From NCBI RefSeq assembly GCF_900104955.1, contig NZ_FNSI01000001.1:3754001-3818000 (forward strand): a DNA stretch of 64,000 bases. The letters run 5' to 3'. The notes beneath the pieces are model-generated. The model was not told the DNA's origin. It did no database searches and saw only the letters and a list, made by a program, of their open reading frames with translations. This stretch comes from Beijerinckia sp. 28-YEA-48 (GTDB lineage Bacteria > Pseudomonadota > Alphaproteobacteria > Rhizobiales > Beijerinckiaceae). This document shows positions 1,831-64,000 of the stretch, piece after piece. A program made the position numbers and the translations under genes. Positions within the stretch are counted from its first letter, which is position 1; every line of letters begins with the position of its first letter.

Positions 1831-3513
1831 ATGGCCACGACGCCGAGCAACACCCGCACGGGCGCCCAGATCCTCGTCGATCAACTGACCATTCAAGGCG
1901 TCGACCACGTGTTCTGCGTGCCGGGCGAATCCTATCTCGCCGTGCTCGACGCCTTTCATGACGCCAAGATCAATATCACCGTCTGCCGCCAAGAAGCGGG
2001 CGCCGGCATGATGGCCGATGCGACCGCGCGCCTGACCGGGCGGCCGGGCATTGTCTTTGTCACGCGCGGCCCCGGCGCCACCAATGGCGCCCATGCGATC
2101 CATATCGCCGAGCACGATTCCGTGCCGCTGATCATGTTCATCGGCCAGGTGGCCCGCGACATGCGCGGGCGCGGCGCGTTCCAGGAGATGGATTACGAAC
2201 GCACTTTCGCCTCGACAGCGAAATGGGTGACGGAGATCAACGATCCCCAGCGTATTCCCGAAGTGGTGGCCCGCGCCTTTCATGTCGCCCTGCAGGGCCG
2301 GCCCGGCCCCGTGGTGATCTCACTGCCGGAAGACATGTTGGTTGAAACGGCCAGCGTTGTTGATGCCTTGCGTGTGGAAGCGGCGCAGGCAGCGCCCGGC
2401 GCCCGCGAGCTGACACGCTTCAGCGAACTGCTGGCGCAGGCCAAGCGACCGATCGCCATTCTCGGCGGCAGCGGCTGGTCGGCGCTAAGCTGCGCGCAGT
2501 TTCGCGCCTTCGCCGAGGCTTTCGATCTGCCTGTCGTCGCCTCGTTTCGCCGCACCATGCTGTTTGATGGCGACCACGCCAATTACGCCGGCGAGTTGAG
2601 CCTGGGCGCCAATCCGGCTTTGGTGAAACGCATTCAGACCGCCGATCTTATTCTATTGATCGGTGGTCGCCTCGCGGAAGTGCCGTCGCAAGGCTACACC
2701 TTGCTCGACATACCGGTGCCGCGCCAACGTCTTGTGCATGTGCATGCGGACCCCGGCGAACTCGGCCGCGTCTATCAACCGACGCTTGCCATCAATGCCA
2801 CGCCGCAAGGCTTTTGCGACGCGCTGCAGACCCTCGTGCCGCCAAAGACGATCGCCTGGAGCGCTGAGACGAAAACGGCGCGCGCCGATTATCTCGCCTT
2901 CTCCGGGCTTGATGCACCGATCCCCGGCGACGTGCAGCTCAACGAAATCATGCTGTGGCTGCGCCAACGTCTGCCGGCCGATGCCATCGTCACCAATGGC
3001 GCCGGCAATTACACCACCTGGGTCGGCCGCTATCTGCGCATCCGCCGATTTGGTGGCCTGTTGGCGCCGGTGTCGGGATCGATGGGCTATGGCCTACCGG
3101 CCGCCGTCGGCGCCAAGCGGCTGCATCCCGACAGACTGGTGGTGAGCTTTGCCGGCGACGGCTGCTTCCTGATGAACGGCCAGGAATTCGCCACCGCCGT
3201 GCAATACGACCTGCCGATTGTCGTCGTGGTGATCGACAATGGCATGTACGGCACGATCCGCATGCATCAGGAGCGGGAGTATCCGGGCCGCGTCTCGGCC
3301 ACTCTGCTCAACTCGCCCGACTTCGCTGCGCTCGCGCGCGCTTACGGTGGCCATGGCGAAACGGTGGTGAAAACGGACGAGTTCGCGCCGGCTTTTGAAC
3401 GCGCGATCGCTACTGGCAAGCCGGCCATCGTCCATGTCAAGATCGACCGCGATGCGAGCACGCCGGCAATGACGCTGACCAAGATCCGGGAAGCGGCTTT
3501 GAAGCGCGGCTAA
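1831..3513 (+). CDS. Thiamine-diphosphate-dependent enzyme, acetolactate synthase-like
   Basis: A 560-residue ThDP enzyme with the three usual domains. The pyrimidine-binding domain (about 8-180) has VFCVPGESYLAVLD and the activating glutamate in CRQEAGAGMM; the central domain (about 195-330) follows; the PP-binding domain (about 370-540) has the metal motif from GDGCF to VIDNGMYG. A GGGGAGG ribosome site sits 7 bases before the ATG. It is coupled to the CoA-transferase just upstream. No regulatory subunit of acetolactate synthase follows, and the family contains many decarboxylases and lyases of unknown substrate, so a biosynthetic IlvB role is unlikely. An acyl-CoA lyase or decarboxylase fits the neighbour best, as inference. 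Confidence 0.85.
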   Translation: MATTPSNTRTGAQILVDQLTIQGVDHVFCVPGESYLAVLDAFHDAKINITVCRQEAGAGMMADATARLTGRPGIVFVTRGPGATNGAHAIHIAEHDSVPLIMFIGQVARDMRGRGAFQEMDYERTFASTAKWVTEINDPQRIPEVVARAFHVALQGRPGPVVISLPEDMLVETASVVDALRVEAAQAAPGARELTRFSELLAQAKRPIAILGGSGWSALSCAQFRAFAEAFDLPVVASFRRTMLFDGDHANYAGELSLGANPALVKRIQTADLILLIGGRLAEVPSQGYTLLDIPVPRQRLVHVHADPGELGRVYQPTLAINATPQGFCDALQTLVPPKTIAWSAETKTARADYLAFSGLDAPIPGDVQLNEIMLWLRQRLPADAIVTNGAGNYTTWVGRYLRIRRFGGLLAPVSGSMGYGLPAAVGAKRLHPDRLVVSFAGDGCFLMNGQEFATAVQYDLPIVVVVIDNGMYGTIRMHQEREYPGRVSATLLNSPDFAALARAYGGHGETVVKTDEFAPAFERAIATGKPAIVHVKIDRDASTPAMTLTKIREAALKRG

Positions 3514-16141: not shown

Positions 16142-18610
16142 TTAGAAACTGACTTTCCCTGTCCCATTCAAGGCGGACACGGACCCTGTCGGCGCGCGCA
16201 AGCTGGCGCGGGCCGATTGCAAGGCGACCAGGCATTCCCGCCCCGGCGCCAGATGAAAATAGTTATCCTGCGGCAGGAAGCCATCGGCCGCGATCACAAC
16301 CGTCTGCGCCAGACGATCGGTTGTCAGCTTGAGATGGAAGCCGTCGGCCTCACGATGAAGCTCCGCCCGCAAGCCCAGATCATGGCGTGTATCGCCACGC
16401 CCCATGGGGAAATGAGTGGCTTCCTGCAACACGACGCCGCTCTCTTTATCGATCAGTCTGACCACATTGGCGTCATGCGCGGGCGGGCCGAAGCGATAGG
16501 TATAAGTCGTATCGAAGAACGCGCCGAGCAGCGTAGTCGCCGCGACGGAATAATGACCGCGCGCCGCAACCGTCACCGACTGCTCGCCGGAAGCGGCGCG
16601 GCGATGGCCCTCGGTGAGGCAGTCCAGCGTCAGCAGAACGTCAATCGGGCGGTCTGTTTCATTGACGACATGCAAGCGCAGACCATTGACGCCCTCGTCG
16701 CTGACGATCAGTTGCACGGGCGCGAAAGCGCGCTTCAAGGCGTAATAGCCTGACTTCGGTTCGCCGGAGTGATCGACCACGCCCCAGCCCAAGGCCGGCG
16801 CTAGGTCTTTCCACATCAGCACCAGGCCGCCTGCCGTGCGCGATCCGGGCCGACGCCATTCGGTGAACACCGCCTGCATCACCTCGGCGGCGGCCGCCTG
16901 TCCGATGGCGACATAGCGATCGAAATCCTGCCCCTTGAGGTGCTGTGGATCGACGTCATAGAGCAGCGTCATATAATGATGACGGATGTCCTCGAAATCC
17001 CAATCGGCACCGCGATCACGCGGCACCAGAGCTTTCCAACGTTCCAACGGCGTTGTGCCATCAAGACGTCGCTTGGCCAGCCGGGCGCGCGACGGCAGAT
17101 TGGCGAAGGCGAGGCACTCGGCGGCAAAGGCGACGTCGGCGCGGCGCGCGTCGTCCAAAGGTCGGCGATAGGCGCCGACACCATAGTAATGGCCAACGCC
17201 CTGATCGACGACGAAAGGCAGCTCGCCGCCAGACGGCGAATTGACGACATAGGCAACGTCCGGCCGCCACGCGGCGACGATATCAGCCAGTTCGCCGTCG
17301 ATGAAATCATTGCTCCAGCGCTCGCGCGGCAAGCCGAGCATGGCCGCCTGCTGCAGGATCTCGCTGCCGCCGCCATAGACGACGAGCGACGGCGATCCCT
17401 GACGCTGTGCGAGAAAAGCTTCCGTTTCGTGGCGCAGCTCGGCGCGAAAAGCCGCATCGCCGACCGGATAGTCGAAATTGGCGAGCATCGCGTCCTGCCA
17501 GATCATGATGCCAAGTTCGTCGGCCAGATCGTGGAAGATGCGCGGTTCATAAACCGTTGTACCGCAGACGCGAATGAGATTGATGCCGGCATCGCGCGCC
17601 AAGGTCAGTTCGCGCGCATAGACCTCGCGCGTCGCGGGAAAATCGACCAGATCAGGTGGCGACCAGCAGACGCCACGGGCGAAGACCGGTGTGCCGTTGA
17701 TGCGAAAACAGAAATCACGGCCATCGGCGCCACGATCGATCGCGACACTGCGAAAGCCGATCTGCGTAACAGAGTGACGGCTGCCATCGATCTCAATCTC
17801 GAGCGGATAGAGCTGCGGCGTGCCGTGGCTGTGCGGCCACCAGGGCGCGACACCCTCGACGCGCGTGTCGAGCGACCAGCGCCCATCGCGCAATTCCGCA
17901 TTCATCGTCTGGCCGGCGCAGATCCAGGCAACGGTAGCGGCCTTCATCTCGGCTGGATCGAAACTGACGCGCAGCTGTGCGCTGCCATCAGCCCATGAGG
18001 TTTGTACCTTGAGGTCGCGCAGGCGTGGGATGCGCGCTGGCAGGATATGCACCGGCCGCCATGGCCCGACGATGGCGACAGGCGGGCACCAGCCCGGCAT
18101 ATGGCCGAGCAGGCTGGTACGCACGAAGCGTAGTTTCTGCTCCGGGATCATCGCCACGCGCCAGCGCGCCCGCTTGCCTTCGACCTGCGACAGGCGACGG
18201 GACAGGCTGCGACAGACAAAGCTCAGGCGATGATGCCCGGTGAGCGTGACGGTGAGTTCCAGCGGCCGGAACATATTGGCTGACGAGGCCAGCTTCACAT
18301 CGTCAAGCCAGATTTCTGCGAAGGTCGCGAGCCCTTCGAAGACAAGCCGCACCTCTCCCGGACCAGCCAGCGTCGCCTGATACCAAGCGTCGCAATCATG
18401 CAGAGAGGCCGCCTCGCCTGGCAAAGACAGGCCGAGATTTTTCATCACCGCCTCAGCCGGCGCCAGGGCCGCCAGATGCGCCCAGCTGGTGAGCCGCTGC
18501 GCCGCCGCCGCATCCTGACAGGCATCGGGCAAAGTCAGCGCGAACGACCAGGCGGGCGCGATGGAGGCCGCATCGCCCGTCCCTATACCAATCCCGAAAG
18601 CCGGATTCAC
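16142..18610 (-). CDS. Glycoside hydrolase family 2 protein, beta-mannosidase-like
   Basis: An 822-residue GH2 protein with an N-terminal sugar-binding jelly roll (about 1-180), an Ig-like domain, a TIM barrel (about 290-600) and C-terminal beta domains. The barrel shows NLIRVCGTTVYEPRIFHDLADELGIMIWQDAMLANFDYP, the beta-mannosidase hallmark, and the acid/base region VVYGGGSEILQQ with its Glu where GNNE is usual. No signal peptide is visible, so it should act in the cytoplasm. It is the last gene of an operon with DUF1839 and acyl-CoA dehydrogenase genes (4-base overlap with the former). That context suggests trimming or making a small glycoside rather than polymer breakdown. The substrate is unknown. 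Confidence 0.8.
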   Translation of the reverse strand: MNPAFGIGIGTGDAASIAPAWSFALTLPDACQDAAAAQRLTSWAHLAALAPAEAVMKNLGLSLPGEAASLHDCDAWYQATLAGPGEVRLVFEGLATFAEIWLDDVKLASSANMFRPLELTVTLTGHHRLSFVCRSLSRRLSQVEGKRARWRVAMIPEQKLRFVRTSLLGHMPGWCPPVAIVGPWRPVHILPARIPRLRDLKVQTSWADGSAQLRVSFDPAEMKAATVAWICAGQTMNAELRDGRWSLDTRVEGVAPWWPHSHGTPQLYPLEIEIDGSRHSVTQIGFRSVAIDRGADGRDFCFRINGTPVFARGVCWSPPDLVDFPATREVYARELTLARDAGINLIRVCGTTVYEPRIFHDLADELGIMIWQDAMLANFDYPVGDAAFRAELRHETEAFLAQRQGSPSLVVYGGGSEILQQAAMLGLPRERWSNDFIDGELADIVAAWRPDVAYVVNSPSGGELPFVVDQGVGHYYGVGAYRRPLDDARRADVAFAAECLAFANLPSRARLAKRRLDGTTPLERWKALVPRDRGADWDFEDIRHHYMTLLYDVDPQHLKGQDFDRYVAIGQAAAAEVMQAVFTEWRRPGSRTAGGLVLMWKDLAPALGWGVVDHSGEPKSGYYALKRAFAPVQLIVSDEGVNGLRLHVVNETDRPIDVLLTLDCLTEGHRRAASGEQSVTVAARGHYSVAATTLLGAFFDTTYTYRFGPPAHDANVVRLIDKESGVVLQEATHFPMGRGDTRHDLGLRAELHREADGFHLKLTTDRLAQTVVIAADGFLPQDNYFHLAPGRECLVALQSARASLRAPTGSVSALNGTGKVSF

Positions 18611-19599
18611 GCGGCCGCCGATCGACGGATCATCGCCCGATCGATCATTTCCATCAGCCGATCGTAATGTTCCGCGAGCGCGGCGACAGACTGCGCCAAG
18701 CCACCGGGCCGGCGACGGGCGACCGCGCGCGCCACCTGGAATTGCAGCGCCTTCATGCCGCTCGAAATGGCGCGGGCGTGAGGCACGGCATCCGTGAAAT
18801 CGACATCAGCGTGAGCCCCGAGCCAGTCGAGATGACCCGCTAAAAGTTCGAAATTGGAACCGCACTGGCGCAAGGTGTTGAAGGCATAGATGTGGAAATA
18901 GTCCGGAGGCCGGTCGAACATATCGACGACCTGCGCTTCAAAACGCGCCTCAAACTGCCGCAGCGGATTGCCTGCTGGCCGGCGCGCCAGATAGCGCCGC
19001 AGCCAATCGAACACCACGACCATATCGAGCGACTGATGCGCCGCCGGCAGTTTCACGAATTCGGTATAGGGCATCAGCATCGCCGTGCCGTCGAGCGTGC
19101 GGCCGCCCGATTGCATGATGCCGTCATAGTCCTCGCCCGAGAGAGCGGCATAGGTGGCGTTGTGAAAATAGGCGAGGCGGCGGGCGACCGGATCGATCTC
19201 GTTGATGCCGATCGTCGTCTTGCTGTGGCCGGAGCGATAGGTGACGCCACGCGTATCGGGCAGGAAATAGCCGTCGACTTCCATCATCACCAGCCGGCCA
19301 CGGCCGTTCTGTTCGACGATATGCTTCTCGCATGTATCGAACATGGCGAGCTCGAAGGTCGAGAGACCATAGAGCGCTTCGATGGCTTCCAGCGGCGGCT
19401 TGAAGAAGGTGAATTGATCGCCTTCGAAATCCTGCGTCAGGGTGAAACCCATCAAGGCTTCGGGCGCACGGCCCAGCGCCGCCAGAACCTCGATCCACAG
19501 ATCGGCATAGCAATTGGTTTCCGGCCAGTCGCGCTCGCCACGATGCAATGCATGGGGCGCGTAACTGTCGGCATTGAGACCAGAAATGACGGCCATCAA
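18607..19599 (-). CDS. DUF1839 family protein, possible Cys-dependent acyltransferase
   Basis: A 330-residue protein of the uncharacterised DUF1839 family. A conserved-looking cysteine lies at C30 in ETNCYADLWIEVLAALG, and a histidine at H125 in a strand reading MEVDGYFLPDTRGVTY...GHSKTTIGIN, followed by LAYFHNATY (H146, N147). This order (Cys at a helix start, a D-x-Y-x-x-P strand, then His) resembles the BtrH N-terminal/papain-like fold, which includes an enzyme moving an aminoacyl group from a carrier protein to an amine. The resemblance is my pattern reading, not a search result. The gene is in an operon: 7 bases after the acyl-CoA dehydrogenase and overlapping the GH2 start by 4 bases. 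Confidence 0.75.
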   Translation of the reverse strand: MMAVISGLNADSYAPHALHRGERDWPETNCYADLWIEVLAALGRAPEALMGFTLTQDFEGDQFTFFKPPLEAIEALYGLSTFELAMFDTCEKHIVEQNGRGRLVMMEVDGYFLPDTRGVTYRSGHSKTTIGINEIDPVARRLAYFHNATYAALSGEDYDGIMQSGGRTLDGTAMLMPYTEFVKLPAAHQSLDMVVVFDWLRRYLARRPAGNPLRQFEARFEAQVVDMFDRPPDYFHIYAFNTLRQCGSNFELLAGHLDWLGAHADVDFTDAVPHARAISSGMKALQFQVARAVARRRPGGLAQSVAALAEHYDRLMEMIDRAMIRRSAAA

Positions 19600-19606
19600 G
19601 ACACCT

Positions 19607-20812
19607 CTAGCCGAGAAGGCCGTTTTCGTTGCGGCTGATCGGCATCAGTTTCTCGACATTGCCGAGGATGCGATCGTTATTGACCATGAGCGCCGCCGAC
19701 AGAGAATCGCGCATGTGGCGGCCGACGCTATGGGCCCCGTCGTTGCGATAGCCGCCAATGCCGATGACGAGCATGGCCTGGCGCACGATGTCGGCCACCG
19801 CCGTCGATGTGGTCACCTTCAGATTGTTCATGGCGACCGCGAAGGCCACCGACGATAGCTCCGCTTCATCGCCCTTGACCGCCTCGAAGCGACGCAGGCC
19901 ATCGAGCACATCGGCCTTCATCTGCTGCAAGGCGCCGACCGTCTGCGTCAGCCGACGGGCGGCGGCAGGCGTCGCGCCCGGCTGGCGTCGTGCTTCGGCG
20001 CGCACGCAAGCCCGGGCCCGCGCCACCGCATCGGCGGCGATGCCATACCAGACGCTGCTCCACAGAATATGCGCCATGGCCAGCATGGATTGCGCGGCGA
20101 TCTCAGCGAAGGGCTTGTCGAGGATCTGCTCGCGCGGCGCGCGCGCGGCAAAACGAAAGCCTTCCGAACAGGTGCCGCGCATGCCCAGCGTGTCCCAGGC
20201 GATGGTCGGCTCAAGCACATATTGATGCTTCTGGATGACGGCCATCAGCTGATCGGAGCTTGGCGCCTCGGCATTGCGACGCGCCGTGATCAAGATTGCG
20301 TCGGCCTTCATGCCATAGGAGATGACATTGGCCTCTTTGCGCAGCTGGAAGAAGCTAGCGTCCTCTTCCGGTTCGATGGCGCAGATGCTTGAGCGCATGT
20401 CGCCGCCGACGCCACCTTCGGTGGTGGCGGACGCCAGCAGCAATTGCTTTTCGGCGATCTGCTGCATGAAGCCGCGATGCCAGGCGGAGCCCTGCCCATG
20501 GGTGACGAGGCTCGAGGTTTTGATCTGATGCATGGCGAAGATCATCGCGGTCGAGGCGCAAGCCTGGCCCAGGATGCTGCAAACATCGGCGACCTCCGCG
20601 GCAGAGGCACCCTCTCCCCCCAATTCGACGGGGATCATCAGGCCCAGCAGCCGCCCTTCCTTCAGCACCTCGAGGGCCTCGGCCGGAAAGCGGCTGTTGC
20701 GGTCAACATCGTCAGCAAATTCGCGCGCGACCGTGGCGGCGGCTTCCGCACGTTGCCGCACCAGGCTCCGGGGGAACCGCTCTTCAACCTTTGGTTTGAC
20801 CGCCACACTCAT
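19607..20812 (-). CDS. Acyl-CoA/acyl-ACP dehydrogenase-like flavoprotein
   Basis: A 401-residue acyl-CoA dehydrogenase fold protein: N-terminal helices (EFADDVDRNSRFPAEALEVLKEGRLLGLMIP), a middle beta domain with ASATTEGGVGGD, and a C-terminal helical domain ending GGYRNDGAHSVGRHMRDSLSAALMVNNDRILGN. In canonical family members the last motif carries the catalytic Glu (YEGT); here that stretch reads MVNNDR, so the usual alpha-proton base is missing or elsewhere. It may act on a carrier-protein thioester rather than a fatty acyl-CoA; the operon with DUF1839 and GH2 genes and the carrier protein elsewhere in the window point that way. Start ATG 20812 is preferred to TTG 20842, which lacks a ribosome site. 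Confidence 0.8.
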   Translation of the reverse strand: MSVAVKPKVEERFPRSLVRQRAEAAATVAREFADDVDRNSRFPAEALEVLKEGRLLGLMIPVELGGEGASAAEVADVCSILGQACASTAMIFAMHQIKTSSLVTHGQGSAWHRGFMQQIAEKQLLLASATTEGGVGGDMRSSICAIEPEEDASFFQLRKEANVISYGMKADAILITARRNAEAPSSDQLMAVIQKHQYVLEPTIAWDTLGMRGTCSEGFRFAARAPREQILDKPFAEIAAQSMLAMAHILWSSVWYGIAADAVARARACVRAEARRQPGATPAAARRLTQTVGALQQMKADVLDGLRRFEAVKGDEAELSSVAFAVAMNNLKVTTSTAVADIVRQAMLVIGIGGYRNDGAHSVGRHMRDSLSAALMVNNDRILGNVEKLMPISRNENGLLG

Positions 20813-20980
20813 TTCGCCCGCCCCAAAAATCCAAACTGTCAAAATCTAATTTGTATTGAGATGTTAAGGTGGGGCACTGTAGAATCCCTTAAGTCGACCT
20901 GCGAGGGATCCCGCCTAAACCGCGACATCGTTAGCAAGTTGCTTCGCCAAAACTCTCGAGGCCGCCCGCGACCGGGAGCG

Positions 20981-20995
20981 TTAACAGTCTATTAA
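20981..20995 (+). promoter_or_regulatory. CtrA-type binding site
   Basis: TTAACAGTCTATTAA matches the full alphaproteobacterial CtrA consensus TTAA-N7-TTAA exactly. It lies 77 bases before the GTG of the alpha/beta hydrolase and 168 bases before the divergent acyl-CoA dehydrogenase start, a sensible place for cell-cycle control of either. It is the only intergenic full site I found in the window. Confidence 0.55.
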
Positions 20996-21072
20996 GTCTC
21001 CGCTGCGGCCCGAACGGTATTTACCCCCAATCACGGGTAGATGCATCACTTCTAGCATCGCAGCGCATCTGA

Positions 21073-22821
21073 GTGGAGTTTCCCCGTCCCGTGCATGCCG
21101 TCGCCTTTGATACCAGTTTCGGCATGTTTCACGACGCCAGCGGCGATACCGCTGTCGTTCTGATGGCGCCGTTCGGCGTCGAGGGACTGGCGGCGCACAA
21201 AAGCCTGCGGCTGCTGGCCGAGGATTGCGCGCGGCGCGGCTTTCCCACCCTGCGGTTCGACTTCCCCGGCACGGCCAATGCACTTGGCGACGAGGCTGAA
21301 TTCGACCTGATCGCCAGCCGCTGTGCGGCGGCAAAACAAGCCGTTGCGTGGATCCGCAAACAGACCGGCCTCACCAAGGTCATTCTCATCGGCTTACGAC
21401 TGGGTGCCTCCATCGCCGCCATGATCGGCCCTGCGGTGCAGGCCGAGCGCGTCGTGCTGATGGCGCCGGTTGTTTCGGGCAAACGCTATCTGCGGGAATT
21501 GAAATCGCTGGTCCAACTGACCAAGGGCGCCGAAGCCCTTGCCAAGGAAGCCCTTGCCAGTGACGGGTCAGACCAGGAATTCGATGGCTTTCGCTTCAGC
21601 GTGGCTTCGCTAGCCGCGCTGCAGGCGATGAATCTGGCCGCCCTGCCGGCGCCGGCGCCTGACGTTTTGATCCTGGCGCCCGACGGCCAGCCGGCGATGG
21701 CCAAACTGGGCGACACATGGCGCGGCAGCCCGAGCGCCAGCGGCGCGCGCGTCACCCTGCTCGCTTTCGAGGGTTTCGCTGGCCTTATTGCCGACCCGAC
21801 CGTGGCGGAACCGCCGCGCACCGACCTGACGCAGGTCGCCGCCTGGCTCGGCGTCGCCGCCCCCCTGCCCCGGCCGGCAGCCCCGATCACGCCGGCAAGC
21901 CTCGAAACCGAGACCTTCATCGAAACAGCAGCGGCTTTCGGCTCGGACGACCAGGTCTTCGGTTTGTTCTGCCGGGCACGGCAGCCCAATCCCGACGTGC
22001 CGGTCGTCATCTTGCTCAACACCGGCGCCAACCCGCACTATGGCTGGGCCCGACAGACGGTGGAGGTGGCGCGCCAGCTCGCCGCCAGCGGCATTTCCAG
22101 CCTGCGGATCGATACCAGCGGCATCGGCGAGACGCCGGATCTGCCGGGACGGCCGAGCCGCGTCGTCTATGTGCCGACATCGAGCGCCGATGTAGTGGCC
22201 GCTGTCGATTGGCTTGAAGCCCAAGGCTACCATCGCCCGATCGTCGCTGGCACCTGTAGCGGCGCTTATCTCGCCTTCCAGACCGCATTGATCGAGCCGC
22301 GCCTGTCGGCGATCGCGATGATCAATCTGCAAAAATTCTTCTGGGACGACAGCCAGCGCCTGACCATCTATTCGTCGACCGGCCATTATCTCTCGCAGCT
22401 CTGGCAGCCGGCACTGTGGTCACGCCTGATGCGCGGCGAGATCGACACCGCCGGCATTCTCAGCACGGTCGGCCAGCGCCTGTCGCGCACCATCCGTTTC
22501 CGTCTGCAGCGTGTCGTCGGCTCGGTGGATGAAGACAGCGAGCATGCCAAGATCCTGCGCAGCTTTGCCAGTTTCCGTGCCCGTGGCGTGAGGATTCTCA
22601 TCGGCTATACAATTGGCGATGGCGGCATCGATGAAATGATTTTGCATCTGGGCCGCAACGCCAGCCATGTCGCCGGCCCCAACCTGCGCTTTACAGAGAT
22701 CAAAGCCTTCGATCACAATTTCACCTCGCCGCGTGACCGCGCGCAACTGATCCCGGCGCTGCGCGATTTCGCGTTGGAAAGCACGCGCCCTGCTTCGCGC
22801 GCCGCGACCGCCGCCGAATAG
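21073..22821 (+). CDS. Two-domain alpha/beta hydrolase with altered nucleophile elbows
   Basis: A 582-residue protein built of two alpha/beta-hydrolase domains (about 1-260 and 285-570). The first has the elbow IGLRLGAS, with Arg where the Ser nucleophile of G-x-S-x-G stands, as in some exosortase-linked hydrolases. The second has AGTCSGAYLA, placing Cys at the nucleophile position, with D-x-x-G-x-G-x-x-P (IDTSGIGETPD) before it and FDHNF near the end as a possible His. So one domain looks inactive and the other may be a Cys hydrolase or acyltransferase. Start is GTG 21073 or GTG 21091. It is divergent from the acyl-CoA dehydrogenase operon and has a CtrA box upstream. Product and substrate are unknown. 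Confidence 0.75.
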   Translation: MEFPRPVHAVAFDTSFGMFHDASGDTAVVLMAPFGVEGLAAHKSLRLLAEDCARRGFPTLRFDFPGTANALGDEAEFDLIASRCAAAKQAVAWIRKQTGLTKVILIGLRLGASIAAMIGPAVQAERVVLMAPVVSGKRYLRELKSLVQLTKGAEALAKEALASDGSDQEFDGFRFSVASLAALQAMNLAALPAPAPDVLILAPDGQPAMAKLGDTWRGSPSASGARVTLLAFEGFAGLIADPTVAEPPRTDLTQVAAWLGVAAPLPRPAAPITPASLETETFIETAAAFGSDDQVFGLFCRARQPNPDVPVVILLNTGANPHYGWARQTVEVARQLAASGISSLRIDTSGIGETPDLPGRPSRVVYVPTSSADVVAAVDWLEAQGYHRPIVAGTCSGAYLAFQTALIEPRLSAIAMINLQKFFWDDSQRLTIYSSTGHYLSQLWQPALWSRLMRGEIDTAGILSTVGQRLSRTIRFRLQRVVGSVDEDSEHAKILRSFASFRARGVRILIGYTIGDGGIDEMILHLGRNASHVAGPNLRFTEIKAFDHNFTSPRDRAQLIPALRDFALESTRPASRAATAAE

Positions 22822-49868: not shown

Positions 49869-50114
49869 ATGAACGATAAGATTCGGGACATTCTCGACCA
49901 AACAGCCAAATTGCCGGTCAAGGCTGCAACGCTATCCGACGACGCCGACTTGCATGAGGCGGGCCTGACCTCCTTTGCTTCCGTGCAATTGATGCTGGCG
50001 TTGGAAGACGCCTTCGAGATCGAGTTTCCCGAACAGATGCTCAACCGTCGTACATTCGCGAGCATCAAGGCGATCCAGAACGCCATCGCCGAATTGACCC
50101 AGACCGCCGCCTGA
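49869..50114 (+). CDS. Acyl carrier protein partnered with an amino acid ligase
   Basis: An 81-residue four-helix carrier protein. The phosphopantetheine serine is S35 in [17 protein letters not shown]; the usual DSL triplet reads TSF, as in the special carriers of the amino acid:[carrier protein] ligases rather than the fatty-acid AcpP. Helix II/III residues [20 protein letters not shown] fit the family. The ligase gene begins 31 bases downstream. It would hold an amino acid as a thioester in the cytoplasm. What takes the amino acid next is not known. Confidence 0.9.
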
Positions 50115-50145
50115 ACAGCTACCGCCCTCGACTGGAGTTGCCTCT

Positions 50146-51099
50146 ATGAGCGTTGCCGCGCCTAGCACCGGGTCCACTTCCTCTTCGCCGGTTTCGGCGC
50201 AGGAAGCCTATCTCGACGAACTGTTCGACAAGGGCATCCTCTTTGATACTGGCGTCGAGGGCCTCTACGGCCGCTCCGGCGTGTTCGAGGATGTGATTCA
50301 GGCTTTCGACCGGCTGATCACGCAATATGGCGCCGCCGATCGCGCCACATCGATCCATTTCCCACCGGGCATCGCCAGGCCGCTGTTCGAGAAGAGCGGC
50401 TATATGAAGAGCTTCCCGCAGCTCGCTGGCACCGTGCACAGTTTCATGGGCGGCGAGGCCGACCACTGCACCTTGCTCGCCGAACTCGAAGCCGGCCAGG
50501 ATTGGACCGGCCATCAGGCCGCCACCGACATCATCCTGACGCCGGCCGCCTGCTATCCGCTCTACCCGACCGTCGCCAAGCGCGGGCCGCTGCCCGTCGA
50601 CGGCCGCCTCTATGACCTGCAATCCTATTGCTTCCGCCACGAACCCTCGAAGGATCCGGCGCGGATGCAGATGTTCCGCATGCGCGAATACGTCCGCATC
50701 GGCACGCCCGAACAGGTCCAGGCCTTCCGCGAAACCTGGCTCGAACGCGGCCAGGCGATGATGGGCTCGCTCGGCGTGCCGCTGAAGGTCGATCTGGCCA
50801 ATGACCCGTTCTTTGGTCGCGCCGGCCGCATGCTCGCCAACAACCAGCGCGACACCGGCCTCAAATTCGAACTGCTGATCCCGGTAACGAGCGAAGAGAA
50901 GCCGACGGCCTGTCTGTCCTTCAACTACCACCAGGATCACTTCGGTTCGCTGTGGAACATCCCCACCAGCGACGGCGAAGTCGCGCATACGGCCTGTGTC
51001 GGCTTTGGCATGGAGCGCGTGGCGCTGGCGCTGTTCAAGCACCACGGCACCGACACGGCGCAGTGGCCGCAGGCGGTGCGGCAGGTGCTGTGGCCGTGA
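50146..51099 (+). CDS. Amino acid--[acyl-carrier-protein] ligase (class II aaRS-like)
   Basis: A 317-residue homologue of the catalytic core of atypical archaeal-type seryl-tRNA synthetase, without a tRNA-binding domain. Enzymes of this family, characterised in Bradyrhizobium, activate glycine or alanine with ATP and load it on a dedicated carrier protein. Visible: candidate zinc ligands C136 (PAACYPLYP), E181 (MREYVRIG) and C284 (HTACVGFG), motif 2-like [20 protein letters not shown], and motif 3 [12 protein letters not shown] with its class II Arg. It follows its carrier gene by 31 bases. Whether Gly or Ala is used is not readable from the pocket by eye. Confidence 0.92.
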
Positions 51100-62806: not shown

Positions 62807-62857
62807 GCAAGAAACGGGCCGAACTTGTGTACGGCCAAGGTCAGCGTGGGTCGAGTA

Positions 62858-64000
62858 ATGGCGCTTTCAACTCGCCTCGTCATGCGTCAGGGGCAATCCC
62901 TGGTGATGACGCCGCAGCTTCTGCAGGCGATCAAGCTGCTGCAATTGTCGAGTTTTGAACTGTCGGCCTTTGTCGAACAGGAACTTGAGCGCAATCCGCT
63001 GCTTGAACGGGCCGAGGAGGCCCCCGAGGCGCCAGGTGCGCTCGAATCCTCCGGCAACGACAGCACTTCGAACGACGATTTCGATGGCGGATCAGACGAC
63101 GGCGACTATGCCGGTGACAGGGATTATTCCGGTGGCGACGACGACCATGCGCCGGAATGGGCGAGCGACACCCTCGTCACCTCAGCCAATAACCTCGAAA
63201 ACGACCTCGGCACCGAAATCTCCAACACTTACGACGCCGATATGGTGGCGCCGAAAACACCCACCAGCAACGAGGACCCCTCGCTCTCGGCCACATCCTG
63301 GACGGGGACGCAGGGTTCCGCCTCCTCCGATGGCGGTGGCGAAAGCCCCAATCTGGAGGCCTATGTCGCCAGCCAATTGTCCCTGCCCGAACATCTCGAA
63401 CAACAGTTGGCGCTCGCCCTGACCGACCCGATGGACCGGCTCATCGGCCATACCTTGATCGATGCGATCGACGAAGCCGGTTATCTCCGAGAGCCTGTCG
63501 CGGAAGTCGCCGAACGGCTCGGCACCACGCTCGAGCGCGTTGAACAGGTGCTGCGGGTCATTCACACATTCGAGCCAAGCGGCATCGGCGCGCGTGATCT
63601 GGCTGAATGCCTGGCCATCCAGCTGCGTGAGCAAGACCGTTTCGATCCCGCCATGCAGATCTTCGTCGCCCACCTGCCACTGTTGGCGCGGCGCGATTTT
63701 GCGCAGTTGCGTAAATTGTGCGGGGTCGATGATGAAGACCTGACCGATATGCTCAATGAAATCCGCAGGCTCGATCCCAAACCGGGCCGCGCCTTCGGCG
63801 GCACGCCCATGCAGCCGGTGATTCCAGATGTCACTGTGCGAGCGGCGTCGGATGGCAGCTGGCTGGTGGAGCTGAATGCGGAAGGATTACCGCGCGTCCT
63901 GGTCAATCAGACCTATGCGGCACGCGTCGGCGGCAACAGCCCGACCAAGGCGGCCGACAAATCCTATATTGCCGAATGCCTGCAGAGCGCCAACTGGCTG
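62858..64000 (+). CDS. rpoN: RNA polymerase sigma-54 factor RpoN (5' part)
   Basis: Partial gene cut by the right edge; 381 codons are visible without a stop. Region I is complete: TRLVMRQGQSLVMTPQLLQAIKLLQLSSFELSAFVEQELERNPLLE, the Gln/Leu-rich activator-response region. Region II (about 55-165) is acidic and Gly/Ser/Asp-rich and longer than in E. coli. The core-binding domain begins near LEAYVASQLSLPEHLEQQLALAL and contains TFEPSGIGARDLAECLAIQL and RRLDPKPGRAFGG. The HTH and RpoN box lie outside the window. It follows lptB, the conserved neighbour. Confidence 0.96.
   Translation, partial: MALSTRLVMRQGQSLVMTPQLLQAIKLLQLSSFELSAFVEQELERNPLLERAEEAPEAPGALESSGNDSTSNDDFDGGSDDGDYAGDRDYSGGDDDHAPEWASDTLVTSANNLENDLGTEISNTYDADMVAPKTPTSNEDPSLSATSWTGTQGSASSDGGGESPNLEAYVASQLSLPEHLEQQLALALTDPMDRLIGHTLIDAIDEAGYLREPVAEVAERLGTTLERVEQVLRVIHTFEPSGIGARDLAECLAIQLREQDRFDPAMQIFVAHLPLLARRDFAQLRKLCGVDDEDLTDMLNEIRRLDPKPGRAFGGTPMQPVIPDVTVRAASDGSWLVELNAEGLPRVLVNQTYAARVGGNSPTKAADKSYIAECLQSANWL

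Follow-up and report, generated by a model that had tools for sequence, protein, structure and literature searches.

A putative six-gene set for tRNA-independent aminoacylation of an amino sugar, carried in two halves by Beijerinckia sp. 28-YEA-48

The window analysed here is a stretch of 64 000 nucleotides from Beijerinckia sp. 28-YEA-48 (contig NZ_FNSI01000001.1). At 49869–51099 it contains the genes for a carrier protein (CP) and an amino acid:[carrier protein] ligase, and at 16142–22821 four genes which the original prediction had put forward as candidate users of the aminoacyl thioester. Our analysis indicates that the two loci are the halves of one six-gene set, predicted to aminoacylate an amino sugar without tRNA and without a nonribosomal peptide synthetase (NRPS). 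We assign this reading a probability of about 70%; the polysaccharide target and the oxidation step are held with less confidence than the model as a whole. The four genes of the second locus are present as they had been described, and the set comprises:

49869..50114, + strand: carrier protein, 81 residues, phosphopantetheine site Ser35 (PF00550, NF005480, PDB relative, conservation of Ser35)
50146..51099, + strand: ligase related to class II aminoacyl-tRNA synthetases (aaRS), type A, 317 residues (NF005479, conserved positions, helix letters)
19607..20842, − strand: flavoprotein with acyl-CoA dehydrogenase fold (‘oxidoreductase’), with a proposed role in oxidising the aminoacyl group on CP (PF02771/PF00441)
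18607..19599, − strand: DUF1839 protein, proposed aminoacyl-S-CP:amino sugar N-acyltransferase, papain-like (Cys30, Thr128, His146)
16142..18610, − strand: glycoside hydrolase of family 2 (GH2), beta-mannosidase-like, candidate acid/base Glu417, candidate nucleophile Glu498 (PF22666/PF00703/PF17753)
21073..22821, + strand: two-domain alpha/beta-hydrolase, candidate triad Cys395-Asp516-His548 in the C-terminal half (matches to TIGR03100/TIGR03101, conservation)

A tendency of these families to occur together had been suggested in the original prediction, with phylogenetic profiling and a gene-neighbourhood search named as checks; both bear the link out. Of 249 genomes sampled across the order, 52 are matched by the ligase profile (48 over the cut-off). 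DUF1839 is found in 36 genomes from nine family groups, and all 36 are among those with a ligase match. In 35 of them the start of DUF1839 follows the ligase match after 31–454 bp in the same orientation; only the genome of the window departs from this. The window hydrolase, used as query at E ≤ 1e-10, picks out exactly these 36 genomes, even when its gene is unlinked. It lies more than 20 kb from DUF1839 in seven genomes: the clear cases are G165 and G210, where the two genes share a contig at distances of 226 kb and 766 kb, and the separation in G246 looks like a contig break, with GH2 and hydrolase continuing on another contig. The window GH2 retrieves the 36 DUF1839 genomes at E < 1e-100 and three more with far weaker values (about 1e-41 to 1e-43). 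A class-wide sample of 337 genomes, which shares a few genomes with the order sample, has DUF1839 in four genomes, each with a ligase; ligase matches occur in 14 (eight over the cut-off).

A second scan covered named genomes with DUF1839 and gave 62 loci, partly overlapping with the order sample (e.g. L146 and G116). Five genes appear in the order CP, oxidoreductase, ligase, DUF1839, GH2 at 51 of these loci, and the oxidoreductase lies between CP and ligase at 54. The other 11 comprise one with GH2 in first position (L167), six cut by contig ends, one split locus (L113) and three without ligase. The six-gene set reaches metagenome-assembled genomes (MAGs) of Myxococcota (L166) and Acidimicrobiia (L169) as well as an isolate of Acetobacteraceae (L167). 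Profile and synteny together rule out that the two loci of the window stand in one genome by coincidence. Gene calls were made with a custom GC-frame gene-finder script; genome G032 was left out, and L188 and L189 entered no analysis.

The 20 kb neighbourhoods of 50 ligase stretches fall into two architectures, the remaining three stretches containing only far ligase relatives. Type A (35 loci) has CP, oxidoreductase, ligase, DUF1839 and GH2 in every case, with the hydrolase inside the stretch in 24. Type B (12 loci) has the oxidoreductase–ligase pair without DUF1839 or GH2; CP is divergent in the nine loci where tblastn found it.

The open reading frames (ORFs) of CP and ligase are intact and lie at the predicted coordinates, and both products exceed the curated NCBIfam cut-offs. 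The ligase scores 505.8 bits against NF005479 ‘amino acid--[acyl-carrier-protein] ligase’ (cut-off 357), and CP, which ends 31 bp upstream on the same strand, scores 113.9 bits against NF005480 (cut-off 72) and matches the Pfam family PP-binding (PF00550) at E 6e-9. At E ≤ 0.001 each of the two has only one match in the genome of the window. For conservation counts we used rows covering 70% of the query, counted identical rows once and excluded the far ligases L110–L112. Ser35 of CP is kept in 92 of 92 rows. In the ligase C136, E181 and C284, which we take to be the zinc-ligand positions of the Bradyrhizobium structure, and R164, E166 and R291, presumably the class II motif 2/3 residues, are invariant (98 of 98). 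Bll0957 of Bradyrhizobium and the Atu2571–2574 locus of Agrobacterium belong to the same ligase and CP families and have the same catalytic positions; the Agrobacterium ligase is presumably Atu2573. Atu2571 (2jq4) is close to the window CP (E 4.6e-23), and the closest solved structure to the ligase is Bradyrhizobium ligase 1 (4h2w, E 4e-102). As others have shown for relatives, the ligase would use ATP to activate a small amino acid, Gly or Ala in known relatives, and transfer it to the phosphopantetheine of CP.

The carrier-binding helix (aligned to residues 222–245 of the window ligase) separates the two types. The window ligase resembles the nine other type A loci listed. Of the 12 type B loci, three have an aligned stretch that starts with FFGRVGQMKAVSQKQ and equals that of Bradyrhizobium ligase 1 in PDB entry 3mey (Bll0957; helix VGQMKAVSQKQ), and the other nine are similar. 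The helix letters thus place the structurally known Bradyrhizobium ligase with type B, where the three identical loci have no DUF1839, and the window ligase with the type of Agrobacterium Atu2571–2574. PDB entry 4h2w is likewise named Bradyrhizobium ligase 1 and has type A letters at the helix; we take this to be an engineered swap for accepting the Agrobacterium CP.

DUF1839 is probably the acceptor enzyme for the CP-bound aminoacyl group. The protein scores 376 bits against PF08893 (gathering cut-off 22.5). C30 and H146 are present in 90 of 90 rows, Thr or Ser stands at position 128 in all 90, and D157 is kept in 89. In a structural search the predicted fold matches CcbD over nearly its full length, which fits the acyltransferase-like residues noted earlier. 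CcbD, AziU and CtaG are the closest structural matches; the latter two presumably work in small-molecule pathways. By sequence, DUF1839 had one match in the PDB (8pjw, SAKe6FE, E 9.5e-5), which contained no stretch passing alone and was taken as chance. We propose that the aminoacyl group would pass to Cys30 and from there to the amine of an amino sugar by a CcbD-like ping-pong mechanism, as the fold and the invariant residues suggest. At L079 (G210:C1:2515620-2516545) two DUF1839 profile matches lie in different frames beside the ligase, reflecting a pseudogene or a sequencing error.

The lincosamide synthetase (LmbC/CcbC, CP, LmbD/CcbD) likewise combines stand-alone amino acid activation, a CP and an amide synthase of papain-like type, whose fold is the one predicted for DUF1839. 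It differs in activating by an adenylation domain, according to the relevant passages of PMC4351081 and PMC12945683, whereas the window has an aaRS relative, and the window set adds a flavoprotein, a GH2 glycosidase and an alpha/beta-hydrolase. BtrH of the butirosin pathway is a papain-like ACP:aminoglycoside acyltransferase in the passage of PMC10318531 that treats it; DUF1839 is a separate Pfam family. BtrH was absent among the 50 structural matches listed for DUF1839, which excludes nothing. Our literature search found no paper tying DUF1839 to CcbD, and the main text of PMC10318531 names DUF1839 but not CcbD, CtaG, AziU, lincosamide or closthioamide.

At each of the 47 type A and type B loci the oxidoreductase is located directly upstream of the ligase, on the same strand, which makes the tethered aminoacyl group, and not the acceptor, its probable substrate. 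We propose that it would oxidise this group, perhaps by mono-oxygenation, which is our preference and not a result. Position 387, aligned to the catalytic Glu of MCAD (position 376), is Ile or Val in 100 of 100 rows. This does not exclude a dehydrogenase, because the solved dehydrogenase 7p98 has Thr there. H105, H258, W261, N389 and R391 are invariant. A single-sequence search of the PDB gave dehydrogenases as well as the monooxygenases nitrososynthase and DszC; in the profile search the only two entries at E ≤ 1e-20 were both dehydrogenases, which counts against a preference for mono-oxygenation. The best NCBIfam match is FadE16, with a weak match to the family of the prolyl-carrier dehydrogenase RedW, all below the cut-off.

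GH2 is related to beta-mannosidase 5n6u (E 1e-45). E498 aligns with a Glu of that enzyme; the region of E417 is gapped, and E417 was placed by its motif. Both positions are Glu in 88 of 88 rows. The N-terminal half of the hydrolase resembles exosortase A-associated hydrolase 2 and the C-terminal half hydrolase 1, with scores for TIGR03100 and TIGR03101 that do not reach the cut-offs (87.3 versus 168.45 bits for hydrolase 1 and 82.3 versus 202.75 bits for hydrolase 2). Within the C-terminal half C395 is kept in 66 of 66 rows, D516 in 64 and H548 in 65; the N-terminal half has no conserved nucleophile, position 109 being mostly Gly or Arg. Acyl transfer or a reaction on thioesters would be in keeping with a Cys as nucleophile. 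Weakest among the proposed steps, GH2 and the Cys-type hydrolase may trim, transfer or proofread on the glycan side. A simple Kyte–Doolittle scan gave no obvious N-terminal signal for any of the six proteins, which are likely to be cytoplasmic, as far as the sequences tell. The window's genome contains a second copy of the two-domain hydrolase (L177, G000:C1:1100199-1101857; 33% identical).

The likely product of the set is a modified sugar that forms part of a surface polysaccharide. We compared the flanks of nine of the 35 type A loci with nine of 40 control stretches from elsewhere in type A genomes, using proteins of at least 150 residues and counting the first 25 Pfam families. Among the 77 flank proteins Glycos_transf_1 leads with nine, and Polysacc_synt (three), WecG (two) and nucleotidyl transferase (two) also occur. 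Glycos_transf_1 is not among the 25 families listed for the 125 control proteins and can therefore occur there at most twice; with the control set to two, Fisher's test gives p 0.003. Glycan genes also accompany hydrolase copies unlinked to DUF1839 (WecG in L180, a glycosyltransferase of family 2 in L184) and those 13–17 kb away from it (two glycosyltransferases, a flippase and Wzz in L186; Wzz in L187). Inspection by eye revealed similar genes near the hydrolase in L178, L179 and L181, and Wzz- and dehydratase-like genes at the Myxococcota locus; none were noticed by eye around the extra hydrolase copies L177, L183 and L185.

The passages concerned in a review of 2022 (PMC9437257) call the role of amino acid:[carrier protein] ligases unknown. 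An association of ligase, ACP, redox enzyme, Atu2574, glycosidase and liposaccharide genes was described by Iyer et al. (2010) in a note added in proof (PMC2922099), in which formation of an amide with the amino group of a cell-surface sugar was predicted from gene context. The association reported here is a confirmation of that prediction. The relevant passages of that paper mention neither a CcbD-like fold nor the two-domain hydrolase, and neither the two classes of ligase nor the split of the operon; what we add is the fold match, the exact profile including unlinked hydrolase genes, the ligase classes and the split. This names the most likely acceptor enzyme, whose predicted fold has a characterised amino-sugar precedent, and defines a six-gene set with individually testable members that would address the old question of what the ligases are for. 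If the reading is true, a synthetase relative has left translation to decorate glycans, with neither tRNA nor NRPS. A wider proposal is more tentative: that a tRNA-free aaRS branch serves surface-glycan synthesis in several phyla, with the flavoenzyme modifying the tethered amino acid (e.g. by N-hydroxylation), DUF1839 forming the amide to give an oxidised-aminoacyl sugar, and the sister ligase class feeding a separate pathway.

Several observations weigh against an amino-sugar acylation pathway on glycans. DUF1839 and CcbD are only 8–9% identical in the structural alignment, and a common fold is no proof of a common acceptor. Their catalytic arrangements also differ: C(T/S)H for DUF1839 according to the passage on this family in PMC10318531, and Cys-His-Glu for CcbD in the corresponding passages of PMC4351081 and PMC12945683. 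The p-values for co-occurrence overstate independence and are only illustrative, because the sampled genomes are related. Sixteen of the 52 ligase genomes have no DUF1839; 12 of these contain the distinct ligase class and four have far relatives below the cut-off. Conversely, three of the 62 DUF1839 loci, from Roseibium denhamense (L123), a Roseibium MAG (L143) and a Proteobacteria MAG (L165), gave no ligase match in locus or genome, yet keep matches to CP, oxidoreductase, DUF1839, GH2 and hydrolase. In these genomes a different enzyme may have come to do the loading, or the assemblies may be incomplete; by eye, without a profile scan, no replacement stood out in L123 and L143. The glycan flank control consists of nine stretches only, and beside either half in the window we noticed by eye no glycan cluster, just scattered sugar-related genes. 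Finally, a stretch of the hydrolase from residue 104 scores 1.82 on the Kyte–Doolittle scale, above the usual 1.6.

The window and its sister genome carry the operon as two halves about 30 kb apart. In the half at 16142–20842, on the − strand, the oxidoreductase is followed after 7 bp by DUF1839, whose stop overlaps the start of GH2, and the hydrolase is divergent on the + strand. In the sister, a MAG named Rhizobiales bacterium 62-17 (L113), a single contig carries the ligase at 1185.8–1186.8 kb and DUF1839 at about 1217 kb; like those of the window, the two genes are encoded on opposite strands. The 30 kb separation therefore predates this pair. Identities between the two are 97.5% for CP, 94% for the ligase, 90% for the oxidoreductase, 87% for DUF1839, 85% for the hydrolase and 81% for GH2. 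Besides the genes themselves, no operon remnants were found at either breakpoint at E below 0.02. For the trees we selected some of the loci (51 and 42 rows, L110–L112 excluded). Window, sister and L115 form one group in the ligase tree (99*); in the DUF1839 tree L115 is unresolved yet nearest by path to window and sister. The two trees show no conflict pointing to different origins of the halves. An ORF that resembles RpoN by eye is located at 62825–64000, 12 kb from the ligase; such ORFs also lie within 10 kb of the operon in L123 and L143, which may be chance.

The long stem of window and sister in the DUF1839 tree (0.58), set against a ligase 84% identical to that of L115, and the 30 kb separation itself would suit a functional divergence after which the halves no longer cooperate in this lineage. 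We consider this improbable: both halves are intact, the same split is kept in the sister, ligase and CP each have a single match in the genome, and the window proteins keep the key positions. An NRPS elsewhere in the genome as the user of the thioester, a link suggested by the title of Mocibob et al. (2010), is largely ruled out for this genome. The original prediction had seen no NRPS module in the window, and this holds for the whole genome as regards the condensation domain (PF00668, no match; adenylation domains were not searched for). Four of 14 control genomes were matched in the same search, three over the cut-off.

Two further explanations concern the product. The same enzymes might yield a diffusible small molecule, an aminoacyl amino sugar resembling a lincosamide glycoside, whose sugar part GH2 would release or detoxify. 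CcbD, AziU and CtaG, the closest structural matches, belong to small-molecule pathways, and GH2 stands alongside DUF1839 in 36 of 36 genomes. We nevertheless regard this as unlikely, given that glycosyltransferases rank first among the Pfam families flanking type A loci, that some of the unlinked hydrolase copies have glycan genes nearby, and that the set is widely kept across nine family groups. Less likely again is a pathway centred on the oxidoreductase, with the amino acid tethered only for oxidation and DUF1839 hydrolysing off the free modified amino acid. This would explain why oxidoreductase and ligase occur together at every one of the 47 type A and B loci, including the 12 without DUF1839 and GH2, but not the CcbD-like fold of DUF1839 (CcbD forms amides) or the co-occurrence of glycosidase and hydrolase in 36 of 36 genomes.

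Neighbours of the ligase in the type B loci L101, L102 and L108 include an AMP-binding ligase, a thiamine pyrophosphate (TPP) enzyme, a short-chain dehydrogenase/reductase, a EutQ-like cupin, a homoserine O-succinyltransferase-like protein and a weak GNAT match. They probably point to a separate pathway that is supplied with a thioester of this kind. The first residues of the window ORF at 1831–3513 resemble, by eye, the TPP enzyme near type B ligases.
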